Below, in pieces: positions 27,455-37,719 of a stretch of 64,000 nucleotides of DNA. Position 1 is the stretch's first letter. Every line of letters begins with the position of its first letter. The stretch spans positions 3,434,001 through 3,498,000 of the forward strand of contig NZ_CP036536.1 in the NCBI RefSeq assembly GCF_005222225.1, written 5' to 3'. This DNA comes from Salinimonas lutimaris. Lineage in GTDB: Bacteria > Pseudomonadota > Gammaproteobacteria > Enterobacterales > Alteromonadaceae. The notes beneath the pieces are model-generated. The model was not told where the DNA came from, searched no databases, and worked only from the letters and a program-made list of their open reading frames with translations. Position numbers and translations under genes: made by a program.

Positions 27455-27598
27455 ACATCGCTGTAAAAAGGCGGGCTGACAGGCTTTGCGGCCAACAATA
27501 AGTGTTTAACAGCGCAACCTGGGTAAACAAAAAACTATATATTTTTGTTACAACCAGTATACTGTTGTGCTCGAACTTTAGAGAAGAATGAATCCAAG

Positions 27599-28006
27599 AT
27601 GAAAAGAAAAAAGCATACATCTGCTGAGGACGAGGCTCAGGTTGACATGACGCCCATGTTGGACATTGTGTTCATCATGCTGATCTTCTTCATTGTTACC
27701 ACGTCTTTCGTAAAAGAGAAAAGCCTTGACGTAAGCCGTCCAGAAGATAACCAGTCAAACAACAACCAGCCGTCTAAAGCGCTGTCTATTCGAATTGATG
27801 AGACAGGCAAAATTATGATGGGTGGCCGTGAGGTTGATATCCGTCGGGTAGTGGCTAACGCGCAAACTTACCTGGCCGAAAACAACACAGACACAGCAGC
27901 CATTCAGGCAGCCGAAGATACTGAAGAAGGTATCGTGGTTGAAGTAATGAACCAGGTAAAAATCGCCGGTATTGATAAAGTGTCGGTGCTGGTGAAAAAA
28001 GGCTGA
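27599..28006 (+). CDS. exbD: ExbD/TolR-family proton-motive-force transducer, no adjacent ExbB
   Basis: 135 residues from ATG 27599 (MKRKKHTSAEDEAQVDMTPMLDIVF); the frame is open 18 codons upstream without support. One transmembrane helix (about 20-42) carries the essential Asp of the family (MTPMLDIVFIMLIFF), followed by a periplasmic domain. ExbD works with ExbB to energise TonB-dependent outer-membrane transport. Here no exbB, tonB or TonB receptor is adjacent and a terminator follows directly, so its partner must be encoded elsewhere. Confidence 0.9.
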   Translation: MKRKKHTSAEDEAQVDMTPMLDIVFIMLIFFIVTTSFVKEKSLDVSRPEDNQSNNNQPSKALSIRIDETGKIMMGGREVDIRRVVANAQTYLAENNTDTAAIQAAEDTEEGIVVEVMNQVKIAGIDKVSVLVKKG

Positions 28007-28174: not shown

Positions 28175-29218
28175 ATGAAAAGTGTAAAAAACGGACTTAT
28201 GATTGCCGGCTGCGTCGCACTCACCGCGATGTCTGCCCCTGCGCTGGCCGGGCCTTTTTATCTTGGAGAAGCCGGTAACTTTAATGCCTACATTATGGAA
28301 GATTTCACTGGCCAGCAATCTGATGTTGAAGGACGCCTGGCGGTGGGTGGTAATCTGAATACAGTTGATTACGGTTTTGGTTATCGCCTACCTGCAACAA
28401 ACCAAAGTAATGTAGTGGTGGTAGGCAATAATGCGACCATAAGAAATGCCCGCATCTACAACGGTGATGCCGTAGCCGGTGGCGATATCGATATTGATGA
28501 CACCGTGGGTTTATACAATGGTGAAGATACGGCCAATAGCCGTCGTTTTTATCAGGACAGCAGCTTTGACTTTGCCTCAGCTAATAACGAGCTGATGTAT
28601 CAGTCTGCTTTGTGGGGGGCATACAATGCCACCGCCGACACCGTGCTATCTGGCAGCAGTGACGGGATCTACCGGATCGACTTTAATGGTACTGACGATC
28701 TGAATGTTTTTTCAATTGATGCCGCAGCGCTTTCATCACCCAACAAGGGCATTTATATCGATGTGCCTGAAACCAGTTACAGTATTATCAATGTTTTTGG
28801 TGACGCGGCCAACCTGTTCAACACCGGTTTTCACCTGCCTTTTGAGGTAAACGGTTCTGATAAATTCCCTGACAATGATTCATCCGGCGCCGATGCTGAT
28901 CGCCATCCGGGATATTATGCGGATAACGTATTGTTTAACTTTGTGGATGCCACTTCGCTGGTGCTTGAAGGGATCGGGTTTAAGGGCAGTATTCTGGCAC
29001 CACTGGCCGACCTGACATTCAGCAATGGTCATATTGACGGCCAGCTGTTTGCAAAGAGCTTAACCTCTGACGGCATCAATAACACCGGGCAAATTAATAA
29101 TTACCGCTTTGGTGGTTTTACTGAAATCAGTGAACCGGCCACCATTGCCGCATTTGGCCTGGTGGTGGCCGGCCTTGTTGGTATGAGCCGCCGGCGTTTA
29201 CAACGCCAGGCCGCTTAA
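28175..29218 (+). CDS. Choice-of-anchor A family protein with PEP-CTERM sorting signal
   Basis: 347 residues. A signal peptide (cleavage near ALA-GP) leads to a choice-of-anchor A domain: FNAYIMEDFTGQQSDVEGRL, AVGGNLN, ARIYNGDAVAGGDI and FKGSILAPLADLTFSNGHIDGQLFAKS (blocks quoted in part). The C-terminus is a PEP-CTERM tripartite signal: SEPAT, a hydrophobic helix (AAFGLVVAGLVG) and the basic cluster MSRRRLQR. Such proteins are processed by exosortase (EpsH-type) and surface-exposed in EPS-producing bacteria; no exosortase is in the window. AGGA lies before the ATG. Its last 21 bases overlap the 3' end of the convergent bcsC. Confidence 0.9.
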   Translation: MKSVKNGLMIAGCVALTAMSAPALAGPFYLGEAGNFNAYIMEDFTGQQSDVEGRLAVGGNLNTVDYGFGYRLPATNQSNVVVVGNNATIRNARIYNGDAVAGGDIDIDDTVGLYNGEDTANSRRFYQDSSFDFASANNELMYQSALWGAYNATADTVLSGSSDGIYRIDFNGTDDLNVFSIDAAALSSPNKGIYIDVPETSYSIINVFGDAANLFNTGFHLPFEVNGSDKFPDNDSSGADADRHPGYYADNVLFNFVDATSLVLEGIGFKGSILAPLADLTFSNGHIDGQLFAKSLTSDGINNTGQINNYRFGGFTEISEPATIAAFGLVVAGLVGMSRRRLQRQAA

Positions 29219-31540
29219 TTCAGGGTCACGCAGAATCAGTGTATTGCTGGTCACGCCTGTGTGCTTGCCAGCAAACCAGCGCAGTTCTATCCCGGCCATC
29301 GTTGCGCGGTATTCCACCGCAAAAGATTGCTGCACAAAACCGGCCACCAGCCAGTGATCATCAATCAGATACTGGCCTTCAATCATCAGATCCGCACCGA
29401 TCCCGGCATCTGATTCAGCCGGCACCTGCTCACCGCGGCCGGTCAGTGCAAAGCGCGAATAACGGTCCTGCTTAATCCAGCTATATCCCAGGTTCACACT
29501 ACTTCGTACCTGCCACTGTCTCGCTTCAGCGCTGAGCAGTTCGCCATACATGCCCAGACTGGTTAATCCGGAAGGGCTGAAGTATCCCCCGTGGCCACGG
29601 GTAAACCCGCTTAAATTGTGGCTGAACCCTTGCCAGGATACATACGGCCCGACCCGAAAGTAATCCAGCGCTACGTTGAATGCTGATGCAAAATCCTGAC
29701 TGGCATCCAGACGGATCCCTACATGATCGTTGTCTTTGACTTGCTGCCCGGTATACCGGCCGAGCACCCACGACACCGACACCGCTCGCTGTGAAGCCAG
29801 ACTTTGTGCATACAAGCCTCTGAGGCCGGTTTTGATCACAGCTCCCCAGGCTTCACTGCTATCCTCAAAATAGGTTGAGCCCATACTTAGCAGGCTATCT
29901 GTCACACGCTGCCGGTAGGCCATGGCACTGAGAGTGGCATCATTAAAAGACCAGCTACCACCAAGCTGACCGGATACTGGTGCGCTTACCGGCTGGTTAA
30001 GCAGTGAATACCCTACTTCTGCATATAGCGTATAGTCTTGCTGCTGGGTCTGCACCCGCCCCCGGATCCCGGTATCTTCAAAGCCAGTGATGCCACCAAA
30101 CATATCATCGACAATGCCATCACCAAACCAGCGACTGGCCGGCACAGCGCCGCTGTACAGCTGTTCATAATCCATATGCAGATCCCAGCGCCACTGCTGA
30201 TAAATACCGCCAAGCCCGATATACCCACCGGCCACATCCAGGTTACCCAGCCCATCATCGCCGCTACGCTGTCGTCCGTTAATACCGGTATAGGCATATA
30301 ACCGTCGTGAAGGATAAATCTCTGCCTGCTCAGCCTGCTGGTGCCATGCCAGATCAAACTGTTTGCGCTGCCAGGCTGTTTGCCCCTGTTGCTGACTTAA
30401 CAAGCGGGCCACAGCCGGATGACGTTGCGCCAGCTGTTGTTGCTGCGCCCGGGCGGTGGTCAGAGTGAGTAGCGCCTGGGCAAAGTCCTGCTGTTCGGGG
30501 CTTGCATCAAGCAGCGTATTAAACAGTGGAATGGCATTAGCGCTGTCGCCGGCCTGAAAATACGTCCAGGCCAGCAATGTCTGTTCATCGCGGGTCAGCC
30601 CGCGCAGGTCTTGCAGTTTTTTTGCCGCGCTGATGCTACTTGTAAACTGCTTATCTTTGTAGGCACTAAGCTGTTGCTGTGCCAGTGCCCGGGCACACCG
30701 CTTAGCGAGCATGGGTTGTACCGGGGAGCTGGCCGCGGTATCACAGGCCAGTCTGGCCGCCTGGCTGGCTTTACCCTGTTTATCCAGGCTCAGCACCTGC
30801 CCCTGCACGTCGTCTGCAAACTGAAATAGCGCAAGCGCGCTGGCATAGTGTTGGTTATCGTACAAAGACCAGCCCTGGCCGGCGGCTTTGACAGGAATGC
30901 CGGCATCAGGAAAACGCTGGCTAAGCGCCTTTAGCTCAGCGATATCCGGGCGCTTCAGCGCTTGGTTAGTGAGCCCGTCAATAGCACTATCGATACCGGT
31001 TTGCGCCGATTTTTGTGCGCCGGTCTGGCGGGCCTGCTCAAACAGAGATAACGCGGTTTCAAAAGCACCGCGCTGATGATAAATCCAGCCCAGCAACAAG
31101 TGCTGCTCTGATTTACCGCTTTGTTGTGCTTGTCTGACCGCTTCTGCCAGCGTGGATGAATCAATCAGGGTCCAGTCAGTGGCAGGCAGCGCGGCCAGCT
31201 GGCTGAACACATCAGACGCTGCTTCAGGCGGGCGGGCTGTGGCAGACGCTGGCGGCGCAGCCTCTGCAGGCTGATTCAGCCGGGACAACGCCTCCTGTAA
31301 ATTCTGATCAGGCTGCCAGTATGGATACTCCTGTTGCAGGCGCTGATACGTCTGGTTGGCCAGACTCACCTGTCGCTGCTCTATGTGATACCACAACCCG
31401 GTAGTATCCGGCGTATCAGCCGCTTGCAGTAATGATTCGCCCGGTAATACGGAGTACTGGGTTACCTGCGCGCAGGCCGATCCGGTCATCAGCGAAGCCA
31501 GTACACAGCCAGATAAATAGCTGACGCCATGCTTAGCCAT
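29198..31540 (-). CDS. bcsC: Cellulose export porin BcsC, short form
   Basis: 780 residues, against about 1150 in E. coli, because the periplasmic TPR region is short. A signal peptide (cleavage near ACA-QV) precedes helical TPR-like repeats up to about residue 390 (for example LLGWIYHQRGAFETALSLFEQA and LLAWTYFQAGDSANAIPLFN), then the BcsC C-terminal barrel domain from about 400 (YAYTGINGRQRSGDDGLGN, GGYIGLGGIYQQWRWDLHMD). BcsC passes the glucan across the outer membrane. Its start overlaps bcsZ by eight bases; its end overlaps the convergent PEP-CTERM gene by 21 bases. Confidence 0.88.
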   Translation of the reverse strand: MAKHGVSYLSGCVLASLMTGSACAQVTQYSVLPGESLLQAADTPDTTGLWYHIEQRQVSLANQTYQRLQQEYPYWQPDQNLQEALSRLNQPAEAAPPASATARPPEAASDVFSQLAALPATDWTLIDSSTLAEAVRQAQQSGKSEQHLLLGWIYHQRGAFETALSLFEQARQTGAQKSAQTGIDSAIDGLTNQALKRPDIAELKALSQRFPDAGIPVKAAGQGWSLYDNQHYASALALFQFADDVQGQVLSLDKQGKASQAARLACDTAASSPVQPMLAKRCARALAQQQLSAYKDKQFTSSISAAKKLQDLRGLTRDEQTLLAWTYFQAGDSANAIPLFNTLLDASPEQQDFAQALLTLTTARAQQQQLAQRHPAVARLLSQQQGQTAWQRKQFDLAWHQQAEQAEIYPSRRLYAYTGINGRQRSGDDGLGNLDVAGGYIGLGGIYQQWRWDLHMDYEQLYSGAVPASRWFGDGIVDDMFGGITGFEDTGIRGRVQTQQQDYTLYAEVGYSLLNQPVSAPVSGQLGGSWSFNDATLSAMAYRQRVTDSLLSMGSTYFEDSSEAWGAVIKTGLRGLYAQSLASQRAVSVSWVLGRYTGQQVKDNDHVGIRLDASQDFASAFNVALDYFRVGPYVSWQGFSHNLSGFTRGHGGYFSPSGLTSLGMYGELLSAEARQWQVRSSVNLGYSWIKQDRYSRFALTGRGEQVPAESDAGIGADLMIEGQYLIDDHWLVAGFVQQSFAVEYRATMAGIELRWFAGKHTGVTSNTLILRDPELSGLAL

Positions 31541-32558
31541 CCTGACGGCTATCCATCAGTGCCAACTCACTGAGCAGGATCAGACTGGCAGAAAAATAGT
31601 CCTGCTCATTGCCTAAGGCAAAAGAGGGCGGCGCAGCAGACTGTCCAGCCTTAAACTGCACCAGCTCAGCCACCACCTGCATGCCTTTGCTCCAGGCGTA
31701 ATCTGCGGGCTCTCCGGTGATCACATCCACAGTGGCCGGCACCTTGTCCTGTTGCCAGAAAGTCAGATAGGGTGACAACAAAGATGCATCAGTGTTTTTT
31801 TGCCATACCAGATGTAGCGGAATACGACAGGCATTGTAACCATAATGCGCACTGATACTGTCACGGGCGCTTAGCCCCTGTTCACTGAGCCACAGCCAGT
31901 CGCTGGCCAGTCCTTTACCCTGCGATGCCGTTTGCGCAAGTAAGCGCTCACCATCACGAAGCAGTTGCGACCATATCGAATCTCCGGTCAGTTGCTGAAA
32001 ATCAGCAAAAGCAGGAAACAGCCAGTAAGACAGATTCAGCTGTACCCGGTGTGGTTTTTCAAATCCCTGCTCGCCTGGTAGCAGCACGGTGTAGCCATAC
32101 TGCTGACGAATCAGCTTACGTTGTACAGCATGAATGATGGTCAGGGCCTGCTGTTTGTAGGTGGTGTTGTCCCATGCCTGACTGGCGCGCAGTAATGCCC
32201 AGGCAATAAGAATATCGCCGTCGCTAGCATTATTATCATCATCCACACATTGGCGGTTATTCGCCTCACAGGGTGTAAAACGCCAGCTGAACAGGCCATC
32301 GCGACGTTGCAGCGTGCGTTGTGTCCAGCGCCATAATGCATCAAACCGGGGCTTGTCACCGGCTGCAACGGCAAACAACATACCATAGCCCTGCCCTTCA
32401 CTGTGAGACACCTGATTGTTGCCGGTATCAATAATTCTGCCGTTAGCATAAAAGCGCGACACGTATTTTTCCCAGTGCACAGAAAATGCGTCCGGCGGCT
32501 TTTGGCTACAGCCAGCCATCACCGTACACAACACCAGACACCACCAGAGCTTTTTCAT
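31533..32558 (-). CDS. bcsZ: Cellulose-operon endoglucanase BcsZ (GH8), predicted lipoprotein
   Basis: 341 residues of glycoside hydrolase family 8. The catalytic acid lies in VSHSEGQGYGM (Glu54) and the second conserved block is ASDGDILIAWALLRA. It trims glucan chains in the periplasm and is needed for normal cellulose output in other bacteria. The N-terminus MKKLWWCLVLCTVMAGC-SQ is a lipoprotein signal with Cys17, unlike the soluble E. coli enzyme, so this one should be membrane-anchored. Its start shares one base with the bcsB stop and its end overlaps bcsC by eight bases. Confidence 0.92.
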   Translation of the reverse strand: MKKLWWCLVLCTVMAGCSQKPPDAFSVHWEKYVSRFYANGRIIDTGNNQVSHSEGQGYGMLFAVAAGDKPRFDALWRWTQRTLQRRDGLFSWRFTPCEANNRQCVDDDNNASDGDILIAWALLRASQAWDNTTYKQQALTIIHAVQRKLIRQQYGYTVLLPGEQGFEKPHRVQLNLSYWLFPAFADFQQLTGDSIWSQLLRDGERLLAQTASQGKGLASDWLWLSEQGLSARDSISAHYGYNACRIPLHLVWQKNTDASLLSPYLTFWQQDKVPATVDVITGEPADYAWSKGMQVVAELVQFKAGQSAAPPSFALGNEQDYFSASLILLSELALMDSRQDG

Positions 32559-34828
32559 TACCAGTCTTCCGTTACCGCTTTGTTTCGGCGGCGTAACAGC
32601 TGCACCGCAATATACATAATCAGACCGACCAACAAGACTACCCCGATCAACCAGTACCAGGGATTATTAGACAGCCAGATGCGCAGTGACAGCCAGTGAT
32701 CATCAGGGTTACCCGCCTCGAACTTTTCTGCTACCTGCATAGCCAGCAGGGGAGCACGGCGGTCCTGCCAACTGAAAAAATCGCCGGCCAGCTGGCCCCA
32801 TAATCCAAGGCTGACCAGATCATCAATACGCGCAGTCAGCAACCTGCTATCCTGCGCCGCCACAATGTACAGACTGCCCTGCTCTGTGCGTGGGTTTCGC
32901 TGGGCAACCAGCACGGCCATCTCGCCCAGGCTACTTTGCTGCGTGGTGGTACCGTGTGTGGTCAGCGGACGGTGAGACTTATCATCGCTCAGGGTGTGAA
33001 TACGGTTATGTAGCTCGTTTTGCAGCCGGTACGGCCACTGTTTGGTGGCCGCCACAGACACCCCATAGGTTTGGGCAAAATCTGCCGGCAGTGAGTCTGG
33101 GGTGCCCAGCACAATGGCGTTGTCAGTCAGGGTGTCGCGAACGCCCTGAATCAGCTCAAGATTAGGTAGCAGGGTACCGGCGGTTTGAGCCAGCTTGCCG
33201 GCCAGGGTCAGCGCGGCGCTTTGCATTTGCGGATCGGTCAGATACATGCCAATCGGCCGGGAAATATCCTGACTGGCAAACGGATATCCGGTCTCACTAA
33301 ACAAGCCCAGATCCGGCAGGCGGGCTACCTGGCCGGCTTCTGGTAGCACCACCGATGAGGTATTGCGCAGCTGAAAGAGCAGATGTGACCCACTGATATC
33401 ATCACAAGGCTCACCGGTGATCGGTGATCGCATGCTCACCAGAAACTCCAGTGTATTTATGCCTCCGTGCAGATGGCGGGCCGGAATACGCAGCTGATAT
33501 TTACGGTAAGACTCACCATTTTCATTATTCAGTGGCCGGCCATGAACCAGTTCCCCGTTCACCAGAATATTCATCATCGACCCCGGGCCCATTGCTGCGC
33601 CATACCCAAAGTCCAGATTCAGTGTCATTGAGGCGCTTTCCGGCACATAAAAATCTGCCGGCAACACCAGCTGTACTTCTTTGGCAAAATCATCCTCGCC
33701 GCGCATGATATTGTTCCCCTCACCCATCTGCGCAAAGGTATATTCATTGCCCGGCTGTAATATATGCGCCGATAACGGTGACGCCCCGGAACTGCTTTGC
33801 ATGGCATCTACGATAATGCTGGCATCCGGGTTAATCGCATCATCCATCAGCGCCAGTGCCTGGGCTGCCTGCACCACTTGCTCGCCGGTCTGGCCGGATA
33901 TCACCAGCCGGGTGCGGGCAGGCACCAGAATCTGATCTGCCACTTTCACCGCCGGGGTTTGCTCAATACCAATATACGGCCCGGTAATTTTACGTTCTGT
34001 GGCTTCACCCAGATAATGTTGTAAGGTCTCCCGGGTACCTGCAAGCACATGCAGGCCGCCGGTCTGCTCATCTGGTACATACCAGCTGCTGTCAAACCAG
34101 CGTTGAGTCAGGCGGTCGTCCCACTCACGGCCAGCAGGTAGAGCCGGCAGATTATCGGGCTGACTGACCTGCTTTGAAATGACAGACAGCGGCGAATACA
34201 GGTTTCTCAGTGCCAGTGCCTGAGCAATGACGGGTAATGCTCGTCCACTGACATCCGCCCCGGCATTATCAGGCGTGATCACAGAAACCTGTTGCTGGGC
34301 CCCGATACCCGGTGAAAAATAGGCGGATAAGTCGCGTAATTGTGGGGCTTTTTGACGATCTTCAGTGATCAGCGTCAATACTGAGCGGCTTAAGTCCACC
34401 TCACTCCATAATTCCGGTGCTCCACCATCCACGCACTGTTGTGCATAATGCTGGCTAACACCGAGTGTTAGCGTGTTAAACCCTTCACGCCACAGGCGGG
34501 CAGGTATAGTCACTTCACTGGATAACGCCGGGCGGTTTGGATCAAACGGGATCTGACCGATCGTGGCATTGTTAAACCTGACATTCAAAATGGACCGTTT
34601 TTCAATCAGCGCTTTGGAGCTGATCACCTCTAGAGACAAAGTGGCAGAAACGACATCTTTATTGCCGGTCAGCGGTACAGACAAATTGCGGTGATCCCGC
34701 ATTCCCTGCAAACGCAGTGGGTTCTGCCCCTGATAAAAGTCGGTCAGCTTACGACTGACCGTTTGCTGTGCATGCGCGGTGGTGCATAACAATGTCAGTA
34801 CAGCAGCGACTATCCAGCTAGTTCTCAT
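32558..34828 (-). CDS. bcsB: Cellulose synthase periplasmic subunit BcsB
   Basis: 756 residues, close to the usual length. A signal peptide (cleavage near AHA-QQ) and a long beta-rich periplasmic part with two carbohydrate-binding-like/flavodoxin-like repeats (DFYQGQNPLRLQG, NVRFNNATIGQIPFDPN, DFYVPESASMTLNLDFGYG) end in a C-terminal transmembrane helix (YWLIGVVLLVGLIMYIAVQLL) that packs against BcsA. It guides the nascent glucan through the periplasm. Its start region overlaps bcsA by 11 bases. Confidence 0.94.
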   Translation of the reverse strand: MRTSWIVAAVLTLLCTTAHAQQTVSRKLTDFYQGQNPLRLQGMRDHRNLSVPLTGNKDVVSATLSLEVISSKALIEKRSILNVRFNNATIGQIPFDPNRPALSSEVTIPARLWREGFNTLTLGVSQHYAQQCVDGGAPELWSEVDLSRSVLTLITEDRQKAPQLRDLSAYFSPGIGAQQQVSVITPDNAGADVSGRALPVIAQALALRNLYSPLSVISKQVSQPDNLPALPAGREWDDRLTQRWFDSSWYVPDEQTGGLHVLAGTRETLQHYLGEATERKITGPYIGIEQTPAVKVADQILVPARTRLVISGQTGEQVVQAAQALALMDDAINPDASIIVDAMQSSSGASPLSAHILQPGNEYTFAQMGEGNNIMRGEDDFAKEVQLVLPADFYVPESASMTLNLDFGYGAAMGPGSMMNILVNGELVHGRPLNNENGESYRKYQLRIPARHLHGGINTLEFLVSMRSPITGEPCDDISGSHLLFQLRNTSSVVLPEAGQVARLPDLGLFSETGYPFASQDISRPIGMYLTDPQMQSAALTLAGKLAQTAGTLLPNLELIQGVRDTLTDNAIVLGTPDSLPADFAQTYGVSVAATKQWPYRLQNELHNRIHTLSDDKSHRPLTTHGTTTQQSSLGEMAVLVAQRNPRTEQGSLYIVAAQDSRLLTARIDDLVSLGLWGQLAGDFFSWQDRRAPLLAMQVAEKFEAGNPDDHWLSLRIWLSNNPWYWLIGVVLLVGLIMYIAVQLLRRRNKAVTEDW

Positions 34829-37037
34829 TTTCTTGGTCCTTGTTGGTTGCCAGCTGCTGCCACAGGCTGGTTACCTGCATAATGAAATGTTGAAATACCG
34901 GCCTGATGCTGACATTGAGTACATGACGGGCACCATACCAGTATGAAATGGGCCGGGTACGACGTCGCTGGAAACTTTTCCAGCGACGGCTGTCACCCAG
35001 CGTAAAAGCAATAATGTCATCCCAGCTATTAAAACTGTTGCGCTCAAACTGAAAGCGTACCGCGCCCGATTGTGGCTCGTGATGAAGTAAAGTACATGGG
35101 ATAACTACATTTTTTTGCTTCGATTCACACCAGCTGATCATCGATAGTGTTTCAGGCAGCGTCTGCTGTTTGGCATGAATTCTGGCTCTGGCTCCGCCCA
35201 GTGACAAATCGCTCATAGTTCCGACCCAGGCCCGGCCATCAGCACTTTGCAGGGTAAATTCATCGTTCGCCGGCAGTCGTGCCTGCACTCTGACCTGCTT
35301 ACGTTCTATCAGGATACTTAACACGCTGAACATCAGCACCAGATTAAACAGATTCCACAGTAAAACAATAACGGTGAGATCGCGGGTCAGCGGCTCATTA
35401 ACCAGTTTGTAAAACCCAATCACCACCCCCAGCAATAACAGTGTAATCAGGCAGTAGAAAACACCGGACAATGGAGAGACAAAGTTTTTTTCCAGATTCT
35501 CGCCCTTAGGGGTTACCACAAAGGAAGGCGCTTCTGGATTTCGAAACACCCTGACCAGCGCACGCAGGGTAAATGTGCATTGCAGAATTTCGTACAATTC
35601 TGACACCAGTGGCCAGCGGGTGCGCCCGAATAACAGCGTAGACAGCTGATAGGTGGCAATCACATGAGGGAGGGTATAGGCCAGAATCTCGGTCAGTGAA
35701 GCATGATAAATTTGCAGGCCAAACACCAGATAAGCTAGTGGCATTAACAAAAAAATAATCCGGGCAAACGGGAACAGCCAGAATAAAATCGAGCTTAGGT
35801 AGCCCGCCCGCTGCATCAGCGACAGGCCTTCTGCCAGTTGGGGTTTTTTCAACAGCAGAATCTGGGTCATACCCTGTGCCCAGCGCATTCGCTGAGAGAT
35901 AAAGGCATTCAGTGTTTCCGGTGCCAGCCCGCTTACCATAGGTCGGTTTACATATACCGACTCATAGCCCATAGCATGCAAATCATAAGCAGTTTCAGCA
36001 TCTTCGGTGACCGACTTGCCTGACAAGCCGCCCACCTCATCCAAATGAGCACGGCGCAAAACAGCGGCTGAGCCACAAAAAAATGACGCATTCCAGAAAT
36101 CCAGCCCCTGCTGGATTGTGCCGTAAAACATATCATTTTCAGAAGGCATCCGGGTAAACGCAGCAAAGTAATTGCGCTCCACAGGATCCGGGTTGGCCAT
36201 AAAATGCGGTGTCTGAACCAGAAATACCTTTGGATTAGTGGCCAGCCAGGGCACGGTTTTATCCAGAAAATCAGCGGTCGGCACATGGTCAGCATCCAGA
36301 ATAACCACCAGTTCCGATTGTGTATGCTGCAAGGCGCTGTTGACGTTGCCGGCTTTAGCATACTCATTTTTATCCCGGCTGAGGTATGTCACCCCCAGAC
36401 TCTGGCAAAGTTGTCTGAGTTGCCCTGCCCTTAATATAGCAGCCTGACGTCCCTCGCGATCGTCCTGAGTCCGTTTCTGTAACGTACCACCATCATCCAG
36501 TAAATGGACGTGTAGTTTTTCTGGCGGGTAGTTCAACTGTTTTGCAGCGCGCAGGGTAACATCGAGAATATCGGCGCTTTCATTGTATGTGGGAATGAGG
36601 ATATCCACCGACGGGAGCTGTTCAGTCGCCAGATCCCTGATGGTTTTTTCCGGCCGGGTAAGCGGATTAATATTGACCATGCAACTGATCACATGGGTAA
36701 AGGCTGCATACAACTCTGCCACATACAGCAGCCACATAGCCACCAGCGAAATCCAGTCGCTGGCCGACATGGTATACATGCCTCGCCACAGTATGTACCG
36801 AATGGTCAGAGCCAGCCCCAGTAACAACGCAAAAACACGAAAATACAGGCGATAACGGTGATGATGTTTAGATTCAGTACCACTTAAGTGAATAAGTAGC
36901 AGAATAATACCAGATGCAACTAATTGACCAGTAGAATCCATGGGCGCCGCCAGCACCGCACTTAATAACAACAGGCAGAGTACAAAGAAAATGTTAAACC
37001 CCAAAAACCAGCGTTTTCCGGGGGGGGATATAGCCAA
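34818..37037 (-). CDS. bcsA: Cellulose synthase catalytic subunit BcsA (UDP-forming)
   Basis: 739 residues with N-terminal and central membrane helices around a GT2 domain. Catalytic and substrate motifs are complete: DDG (181-183), DAD (248-250), TED (344-346) and QRMRW (382-386). The C-terminal PilZ domain keeps RVQAR (583-587) and DLSLGG (610-615), so c-di-GMP activation is expected. It polymerises UDP-glucose into beta-1,4-glucan and threads it across the inner membrane. It lacks the long N-terminal extension of E. coli BcsA (872). It starts two bases after an unassigned two-helix protein gene and overlaps bcsB. Confidence 0.96.
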   Translation of the reverse strand: MAISPPGKRWFLGFNIFFVLCLLLLSAVLAAPMDSTGQLVASGIILLLIHLSGTESKHHHRYRLYFRVFALLLGLALTIRYILWRGMYTMSASDWISLVAMWLLYVAELYAAFTHVISCMVNINPLTRPEKTIRDLATEQLPSVDILIPTYNESADILDVTLRAAKQLNYPPEKLHVHLLDDGGTLQKRTQDDREGRQAAILRAGQLRQLCQSLGVTYLSRDKNEYAKAGNVNSALQHTQSELVVILDADHVPTADFLDKTVPWLATNPKVFLVQTPHFMANPDPVERNYFAAFTRMPSENDMFYGTIQQGLDFWNASFFCGSAAVLRRAHLDEVGGLSGKSVTEDAETAYDLHAMGYESVYVNRPMVSGLAPETLNAFISQRMRWAQGMTQILLLKKPQLAEGLSLMQRAGYLSSILFWLFPFARIIFLLMPLAYLVFGLQIYHASLTEILAYTLPHVIATYQLSTLLFGRTRWPLVSELYEILQCTFTLRALVRVFRNPEAPSFVVTPKGENLEKNFVSPLSGVFYCLITLLLLGVVIGFYKLVNEPLTRDLTVIVLLWNLFNLVLMFSVLSILIERKQVRVQARLPANDEFTLQSADGRAWVGTMSDLSLGGARARIHAKQQTLPETLSMISWCESKQKNVVIPCTLLHHEPQSGAVRFQFERNSFNSWDDIIAFTLGDSRRWKSFQRRRTRPISYWYGARHVLNVSIRPVFQHFIMQVTSLWQQLATNKDQENEN

Positions 37038-37038
37038 A

Positions 37039-37524
37039 TCAAAGTTCCGCGGTTGGTACTCTGGTCACAGATGTATAGGTACTTCGGTCGATTAACACCA
37101 GCGCTGATTCGGTGTATTCCACTTCGTGATTACTTTCGTAAAAACGCCGAGATAAACCATCCCGGTGACGTTGACACTCCCGGGAAACCAGCACACTAAT
37201 GGGTAATAAAATCAGCCCGCCTGCCAGTACCAGGACCTCGGTGATAAACACCCAGGGCGACATGACCGGAGCGACATACAAAGAAAAACAAAGTGTTAGC
37301 GCTGCTGCTACTATAATGACATTAGAGATCGCCCGCAAGCGGTTAGCGCGATGCAAAGACCGCTCTGCTTTCAAAAGCTTACGCAGTCGTTTATTCCAGC
37401 GTTGCTCCAGACCATGTTCACTGACTTGGCTATCGTGCAGACGCACCTGTCGCCGGTTAAACATCGGCGTGACGTTGTTTGAGTAGGAAACTGAGGTGGG
37501 GGATTTATATTCGTCTGGTTGCAT
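37039..37524 (-). CDS. Unassigned two-helix membrane protein at the head of the bcs operon
   Basis: 161 residues from ATG 37524, preferred because GAGAGG lies about six bases upstream; an ATG at 37563 is possible. A polar N-terminal part with a basic stretch (RWNKRLRKLLKAERSLHRANRLR) precedes two hydrophobic helices (about 68-86 and 91-112) and a cytoplasmic-looking acidic C-terminus (HEVEYTESALVLIDRSTY). It is not BcsQ (no Walker P-loop) and I do not recognise BcsE, F, G, R or D. The two-base gap to bcsA implies co-transcription and a role in cellulose synthesis, which is inference. Confidence 0.65.
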   Translation of the reverse strand: MQPDEYKSPTSVSYSNNVTPMFNRRQVRLHDSQVSEHGLEQRWNKRLRKLLKAERSLHRANRLRAISNVIIVAAALTLCFSLYVAPVMSPWVFITEVLVLAGGLILLPISVLVSRECQRHRDGLSRRFYESNHEVEYTESALVLIDRSTYTSVTRVPTAEL

Positions 37525-37719
37525 GGCTGGCCTCTCATACGTATCAATAGTGTAGAGAAGCATGCTCTGCAGATAAATTGTACAGAATATACCGGGTTAT
37601 CCGCCCCGATACTTTTTATATACTTTAGTATAAAAACTGCGATATCAATCAATTAGATCAAATGCAGCATACTGCATATCACCCCCGTAAACCATCAACA
37701 TTAACGGACAGTCAGAACA

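Follow-up and report, generated by a model that had tools for sequence, protein, structure and literature searches.

PgaD is a small integral membrane protein with two membrane helices, and it is encoded together with a processive GT2 synthase. This synthase, PgaC, is described as depending on PgaD, and c-di-GMP as binding to both proteins (PMC8461298). For the cellulose synthase BcsA, a published account of accessory subunits (PMC11470070) presents BcsR as a plug in the GT-PilZ pocket that binds and activates the enzyme, and offers a model in which the N-terminus of BcsP plugs the same pocket. In the same account, BcsF recruits BcsE. The classification given there assigns systems with BcsD to type I, those with BcsE and BcsG to type II, and those without BcsD, BcsE and BcsG, often with BcsK replacing BcsC, to type III (PMC11470070).

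The operon studied here lies in the window, by which we mean the whole 64,000-nucleotide stretch of Salinimonas lutimaris DNA that was analyzed. Five genes touch or overlap on the minus strand in the order P161-bcsA-bcsB-bcsZ-bcsC, and the open reading frames (ORFs) and family matches agree with the first-pass annotation on this arrangement. The leading gene (37039–37524) encodes a 161-residue protein with two predicted membrane helices, hereafter P161, and is called on its ORF, its co-occurrence with bcs genes in 30 of 30 genomes, and its dN/dS. It is followed by bcsA (34818–37037), the catalytic subunit with a PilZ domain (TIGR03030, 4.8e-238; PilZ, 2.6e-7), a divergent type of bcsB (32558–34828; PF03170, 9.9e-70), bcsZ, a GH8 endoglucanase (31533–32558; PF01270, 2.7e-64), and bcsC, a short outer-membrane porin with TPR repeats (29198–31540; BCSC_C, PF05420, 7.5e-32). 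ORF and family searches revealed no further gene within the operon. The closest PDB relative of the window BcsA is a solved BcsA. Against PF03170, canonical BcsB proteins from the family reach 7.5e-144 or better, except for a fragmented one (G129). The window BcsC has 780 residues, compared with about 1100–1400 in six of the eight canonical-type family loci opened; therefore, it probably contains fewer TPR repeats.

The P161 ORF is real and comprises 161 codons from an ATG at 37524. An alternative in-frame ATG at 37563 would give 174 residues, but the shorter form is favored because it is preceded by a Shine-Dalgarno-like stretch (AGAGG) and the nearest relatives start likewise (161 residues). 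The bcsA start codon is a TTG located one base past the P161 stop codon, a spacing that probably couples the synthesis of BcsA to that of P161. The same one-base gap to a bcsA TTG was observed in nine of the 30 loci compared (L002–L009 and L011), and elsewhere there are loci in which the longest bcsA ORF overlaps the end of the P161 gene.

The first-pass annotation regarded bcsQ, bcsR, bcsE, bcsF, bcsG, and bcsD as missing. This is borne out by the lack of any additional gene in the operon, on which the statement for BcsR, BcsE, BcsF, and BcsD rests, and by the profile of BcsG, which is encoded with BcsF in E. coli and matched none of the 59 genomes of the genus. The BcsQ profile matched all 59 genus genomes and all 14 control genomes. 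The matches in the S. lutimaris genome were 7e-12 or weaker and were located outside the window, and the only strong match (1.8e-34) was found in G036, within a second, separate operon of that genome. Assignment of the system to type II is not supported, since BcsG and any extra operon gene are absent, and a look at the operon level gave no gene for the type I marker BcsD. The negative part of the type III definition fits in that BcsG is absent, yet BcsC is present. Accessory subunits are the basis on which bacterial cellulose systems are classified; the window system has none of the markers tested, yet it encodes its own, strictly conserved subunit.

The genus set of 59 genomes, which holds named Alteromonas and Salinimonas contigs, contains a P161 homologue in 30 genomes and BcsB in 30 genomes, and the two sets are identical. 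All 30 P161 genes are on the same strand as the BcsB match and 2278–2332 bp from it, a distance equal to one bcsA length. The bcsA gene itself was read between them in 10 of these genomes and in 18 of the 19 named loci, the contig of the remaining locus (L048) being too short. The bcsA gene of G043 is frameshifted and split into three ORFs (L099:10961-13166), and bcsB of G037 is split into two (L105:12663-14940); the P161 gene is open in both, and each break is either a pseudogene or a sequencing error. One of the 30, G036, also encodes a canonical BcsB, which no P161 adjoins.

At the family level, 295 genomes were searched, and BcsB exceeded the cut-off in 42 and fell below it in one more. 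The divergent type accounts for 12 of the 42 genomes (G172, G072, and 10 from this genus) and the canonical type for 30, including G129. The P161 profile matched the 10 genus genomes and G172, and three weak matches were left uncounted. P161 of G072 escaped the genome search and was recognized from its location and from a profile search of the local ORFs run without filtering; it is the weakest member (3.6e-6, 15% identity). When 394 genomes of the order were searched with the window BcsB, three more divergent-type operons were found outside the family (G583, G426, and G491; family f11), and in all three P161 immediately precedes bcsA (blastp, 3e-16, 1.7e-10, and 2.3e-8, respectively). The P161 profile matched six of 227 order genomes, all of which carry the operon, and gave one additional weak match in a broken frame. 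Beyond the genus, five operons keep the arrangement, belonging to another family and to two further genera, and P161 precedes bcsA in 35 of 35 operons of this type. The proposal that P161 is a lineage-specific accessory subunit of BcsA is supported by these comparisons, with contact between the two proteins as its putative element.

No credible P161 homologue was found in the 30 family genomes with canonical BcsB, and P161 is therefore not general in the family. All credible homologues that were found precede the bcsA gene of a single BcsA lineage, rather than lying mainly away from bcs genes. Four further matches were not counted: G286 (1e-6) in an ABC-transporter-like ORF, G261 (9e-4) in an AraC-like ORF, and two in frames interrupted by stops, in G128 (4e-4), which belongs to the 30 canonical genomes, and in G530 (1e-3). 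Other neighbors surround the operon in G172, in G072, in the f11 genomes, and in Alteromonas sp. C1M14 (L047), where P161 precedes bcsA though the usual neighbors are missing; therefore, P161 is linked to bcs rather than to a fixed place on the chromosome. A class sample of 369 genomes contained four remoter bcsA-B-Z-C operons (G893, G996, G717, and G706) that resemble the window in core order, with 27–30% identity in BcsB and 41–45% in BcsA. They differ from it in having no small gene before bcsA, another BcsA segment at residues 276–302, and another BcsA C-terminus. Therefore, synthases of this type do not generally require P161.

P161 is a real conserved protein under purifying selection. 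The dN/dS ratio was 0.053–0.145 in 10 of 11 pairs, and dS was saturated in the eleventh. Among 27 sequences (the window protein and 26 relatives), the core motifs W..RL......E and F-S-L are invariant, as are R-[DN]..S..F-Y.S-N.E and L-I-[ND]-R.....V-T after helix 2. In a 17-row alignment including five distant members, Leu47, Phe80, Ser125, and Leu144 are invariant, and Arg46, Glu54, Phe93, Arg121, Phe128, Ile145, and Arg147 are nearly so. An AF2 model built with 18 sequences (mean pLDDT 76.9, pTM 0.58) predicts a long two-helix membrane hairpin with a three-stranded tip, following a disordered N-terminal stretch (residues 1–31). The first long helix (residues 36–84; 37273–37419, minus strand) leads from a basic cytosolic part into membrane helix 1, according to the model, hydropathy, and charge, and its block pLDDT is 89–91 at residues 41–80 and lower at both ends. 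The second (residues 90–130; 37135–37257, minus strand) leads from membrane helix 2 into a cytosolic helix and bears the conserved R-[DN]-xx-S-xx-F-Y motif of the alignment. A three-stranded meander follows (residues 133–157; 37054–37128, minus strand; block pLDDT 72–84), with strands at residues 133–137, 141–146, and 152–157 and the conserved L-I-[ND]-R.

By hydropathy, two membrane segments are present in all but one of 17 members, L020 having a single one. A positive stretch ahead of the first segment suggests that the N-terminus is inside. Past helix 2, basic and acidic residues are equal in number in the window protein (5 and 5), so the placement of the C-terminus inside relies on the predicted hairpin. 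The basic helix and the two membrane helices proposed in the first-pass annotation were thus recovered, the former with 10 Lys or Arg and three Asp or Glu at residues 36–65. The acidic tail holds for the last 35 residues (three basic and six acidic), but not for residues 113–161 as a whole (7 and 8). No PDB relative was found by sequence (best E value, 0.32), and a Foldseek search of the PDB with the model gave nothing at E ≤ 0.001, the best match (0.089) being helical toxin chains. VIA-align matched many unrelated helical proteins with Z up to 9.6, which is under the level advised for long helices. These structural matches are insignificant, and we claim no fold relative for the model.

Its position and co-inheritance indicate that P161 belongs to the synthase, and the predicted topology would allow it to reach BcsA in the membrane as well as in the cytosol. 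Both ends would face the cytosol, the hairpin would pack beside the BcsA membrane helices, and the cytosolic helix pair and sheet could rest on BcsA near the surface formed by the glycosyltransferase domain, the PilZ domain, and the C-terminus. Since known small partners serve the same enzyme class, P161 may stabilize or gate the active, c-di-GMP-bound form of BcsA. By analogy, this role would correspond to that of PgaD for PgaC, and to the one that BcsR and BcsQ, or the N-terminus of BcsP, play for other BcsA proteins. We regard a dedicated inner-membrane accessory subunit, stabilizing or gating the BcsA of this lineage, as having about an even chance of being correct. If P161 does activate BcsA, it would represent a minimal, membrane-borne regulation of the synthase, in a common marine genus and simpler to study than the BcsRQEFG system of E. 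coli.

P161 might instead be an assembly, membrane-insertion, or localization factor that acts via BcsA or BcsB and does not regulate catalysis. Heading the operon and probably being translationally coupled to bcsA would suit such a factor, and the occurrence of P161 only with the divergent type makes BcsB an equally possible partner. However, P161 has no NTPase or known chaperone domain, and much of its conservation lies in the compact cytosolic tip, which fits a regulator too. We consider this explanation unlikely, although it is the strongest competitor of the accessory subunit.

The evolution of BcsA was examined using a maximum-likelihood tree of 49 proteins, comprising 21 P161-associated and 24 canonical BcsA proteins and the P161-less bcsABZC lineages. 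The 21 P161-associated proteins form one side of a single branch with support 100/100 and a length of 1.82 changes per column. They adjoin the P161-less bcsABZC lineages, and the 24 canonical proteins are placed apart; long branches meet at this split, which makes the exact sister relations unsure. In a redundancy-reduced set of 17 P161-type, four outgroup, and 23 canonical proteins, 271 columns are conserved, and 25 of these are specific to the lineage, which could be a long-branch effect. At residues 276–302 (36132–36212, minus strand), the QTPHFMANPDPVERNYF segment contains a one-residue insertion, Tyr290 (NYF vs N-L), which is present in all printed P161-type rows and absent from the four outgroup and 26 canonical proteins compared. 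Six of the 23 conserved columns in this segment are lineage-specific (p = 0.012). The densest patch follows the PilZ domain at residues 681–713 (34899–34997, minus strand), with six of 16 (p = 0.0014). The patches were picked after seeing the data, and correction over nine regions leaves only the latter, at about 0.013. Conservation exceeds that of canonical BcsA most strongly in windows of the alignment starting at 179–188, which hold no lineage-specific column; therefore, the two patches are not the sole difference from the canonical proteins.

From the topology of R. sphaeroides BcsA, we take both patches to be cytosolic. Such a location would suit the cytosolic tip of P161, although the agreement is suggestive only. 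A more specific proposal is that P161 founds a new family of membrane-integral regulators, in which a hairpin gained once with one BcsA lineage replaced the cytosolic BcsRQ (or BcsP), docks on the Tyr290 insertion and the post-PilZ segment, and sets the response to c-di-GMP. We put it forward tentatively, with somewhat more doubt than belief.

P161 matched no Pfam or NCBIfam family above the cut-off, including the known bcs accessory families. It corresponds to BcsQ in gene position only; canonical operons (L101) encode BcsQ immediately before bcsA. P161 has no match to PF06564 in Pfam-A and, as the first-pass annotation had stated, no P-loop motif was found in it; BcsQ is an NTPase that acts in the cytosol, like BcsR and the BcsP N-terminus, whereas P161 is membrane-integral by prediction. 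Membership in BcsR, whose Pfam family we take to be PF10945, is disfavored by the lack of such a match at E values up to 1 and by the predicted membrane hairpin.

Alternatively, P161 could be a member of BcsF, BcsR, or PgaD that has diverged past recognition by sequence. BcsF is likewise a small inner-membrane Bcs subunit, with a helix extending into an amphipathic cytosolic stretch; it is described as having one membrane helix (PMC11470070), compared with two predicted in P161. The BcsF family (PF11120) gives a weak match at residues 98–128, with E values of 0.41 (Pfam) and 0.76 (NCBIfam) and scores of 11 and 9.8 bits against cut-offs of 23 and 56, and a shared P...R-D-x-L...F is recognizable by eye. 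However, the families listed for 27 members of P161 (25 of 40) do not include BcsF. Profile comparison by hhalign with 19 putative BcsF proteins of canonical operons gave a probability of 0.14%, and 13 of 20 column shuffles (0.06–1.39% overall) and both reversed controls (0.74 and 0.25%) exceeded this value. The comparison is weak because these references were putative, chosen by size and place; of 10 checked, one matched PF11120 under the cut-off, two had other sub-cut-off matches, and seven had none.

PgaD is of a similar size class. P161 differs from it in having a cytosolic helix of about 30 residues before helix 1 and a β tip, and its synthase has a PilZ domain of its own, unlike the PgaD system. 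No match to PF13994 was found, and hhalign against five PgaD proteins gave 0.33% over 19 columns (reversed controls, 0.13–0.14%), values that mean little for short membrane proteins, since putative BcsF and PgaD gave 17%. PgaD was therefore dropped as a family assignment and is retained as a possible functional analogy. Overall, we regard descent from one of these families as improbable. The remaining sub-cut-off matches (IgaA, 7e-4; 8xMP, DUF2207_C, DsbD_2, and others) vary between members and were treated as chance; 8xMP (PF24838) touches 12 of 27 members with a best E value of 0.0072, and in four of 10 members scanned it covers the membrane hairpin with 11–16 bits against a cut-off of 30. 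These matches to unrelated membrane families, together with the lack of a direct functional link, could suggest that P161 is a passenger in the operon and serves the envelope in a way that has nothing to do with cellulose, but this is very improbable given its strict co-occurrence and adjacency with bcs across different genomic neighborhoods and the weakness of all matches elsewhere.

P161 is probably a so far undescribed, dedicated partner of cellulose synthase. In the open-licence literature on bcs accessory genes and on bcsA of Alteromonas and Salinimonas, no description of a P161-like gene was found, and it may be described elsewhere. The account of the A. australica operon names BcsA, BcsB, BcsC, and BcsZ (PMC4119200), and the passage on the cellulose operon of Pseudoalteromonas lipolytica names it without a P161-like gene (PMC8919034). 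A paper on operon classification limited its query to bcsABZC, and its main text does not include Alteromonas (PMC7112194). Among 72,556 plasmid records, no copy of P161 was found.

Several neighboring genes were also observed. An ice-binding-like adhesive PEP-CTERM protein (28175–29218, plus strand; PF20597, 1.2e-49) is encoded tail-to-tail with bcsC and ends 21 bp inside its 3' end. This arrangement is found in 17 of the 19 named loci (L047 is without it, and L048 is too short), and the adhesive neighbor is also present in G072, of another genus (L095:11176-12300); G172 and the three f11 genomes have no PF20597 match next to the operon. The protein is possibly a cellulose-associated matrix protein. 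Adjoining it is an ExbD-like gene, named by eye (27545–28006, plus strand), with a relative at the same place in 12 of the 19 named loci; in most of the others, the fetched stretch ends first. On the other side, a YgjV-like membrane protein gene (PF10688) lies just upstream of P161 in eight of 10 opened genus loci, and not in the window, L097, or L107. Two of these genes were scanned, L100:9604-10110 (5.5e-29) and L104:9396-9902 (1.3e-26). Finally, the second bcs locus of G036 and a locus in G166 contain single ORFs that match both BcsA and BcsB (L098:8269-12594, 1441 residues, and L114:6579-11024, 1481 residues), representing a fused synthase.
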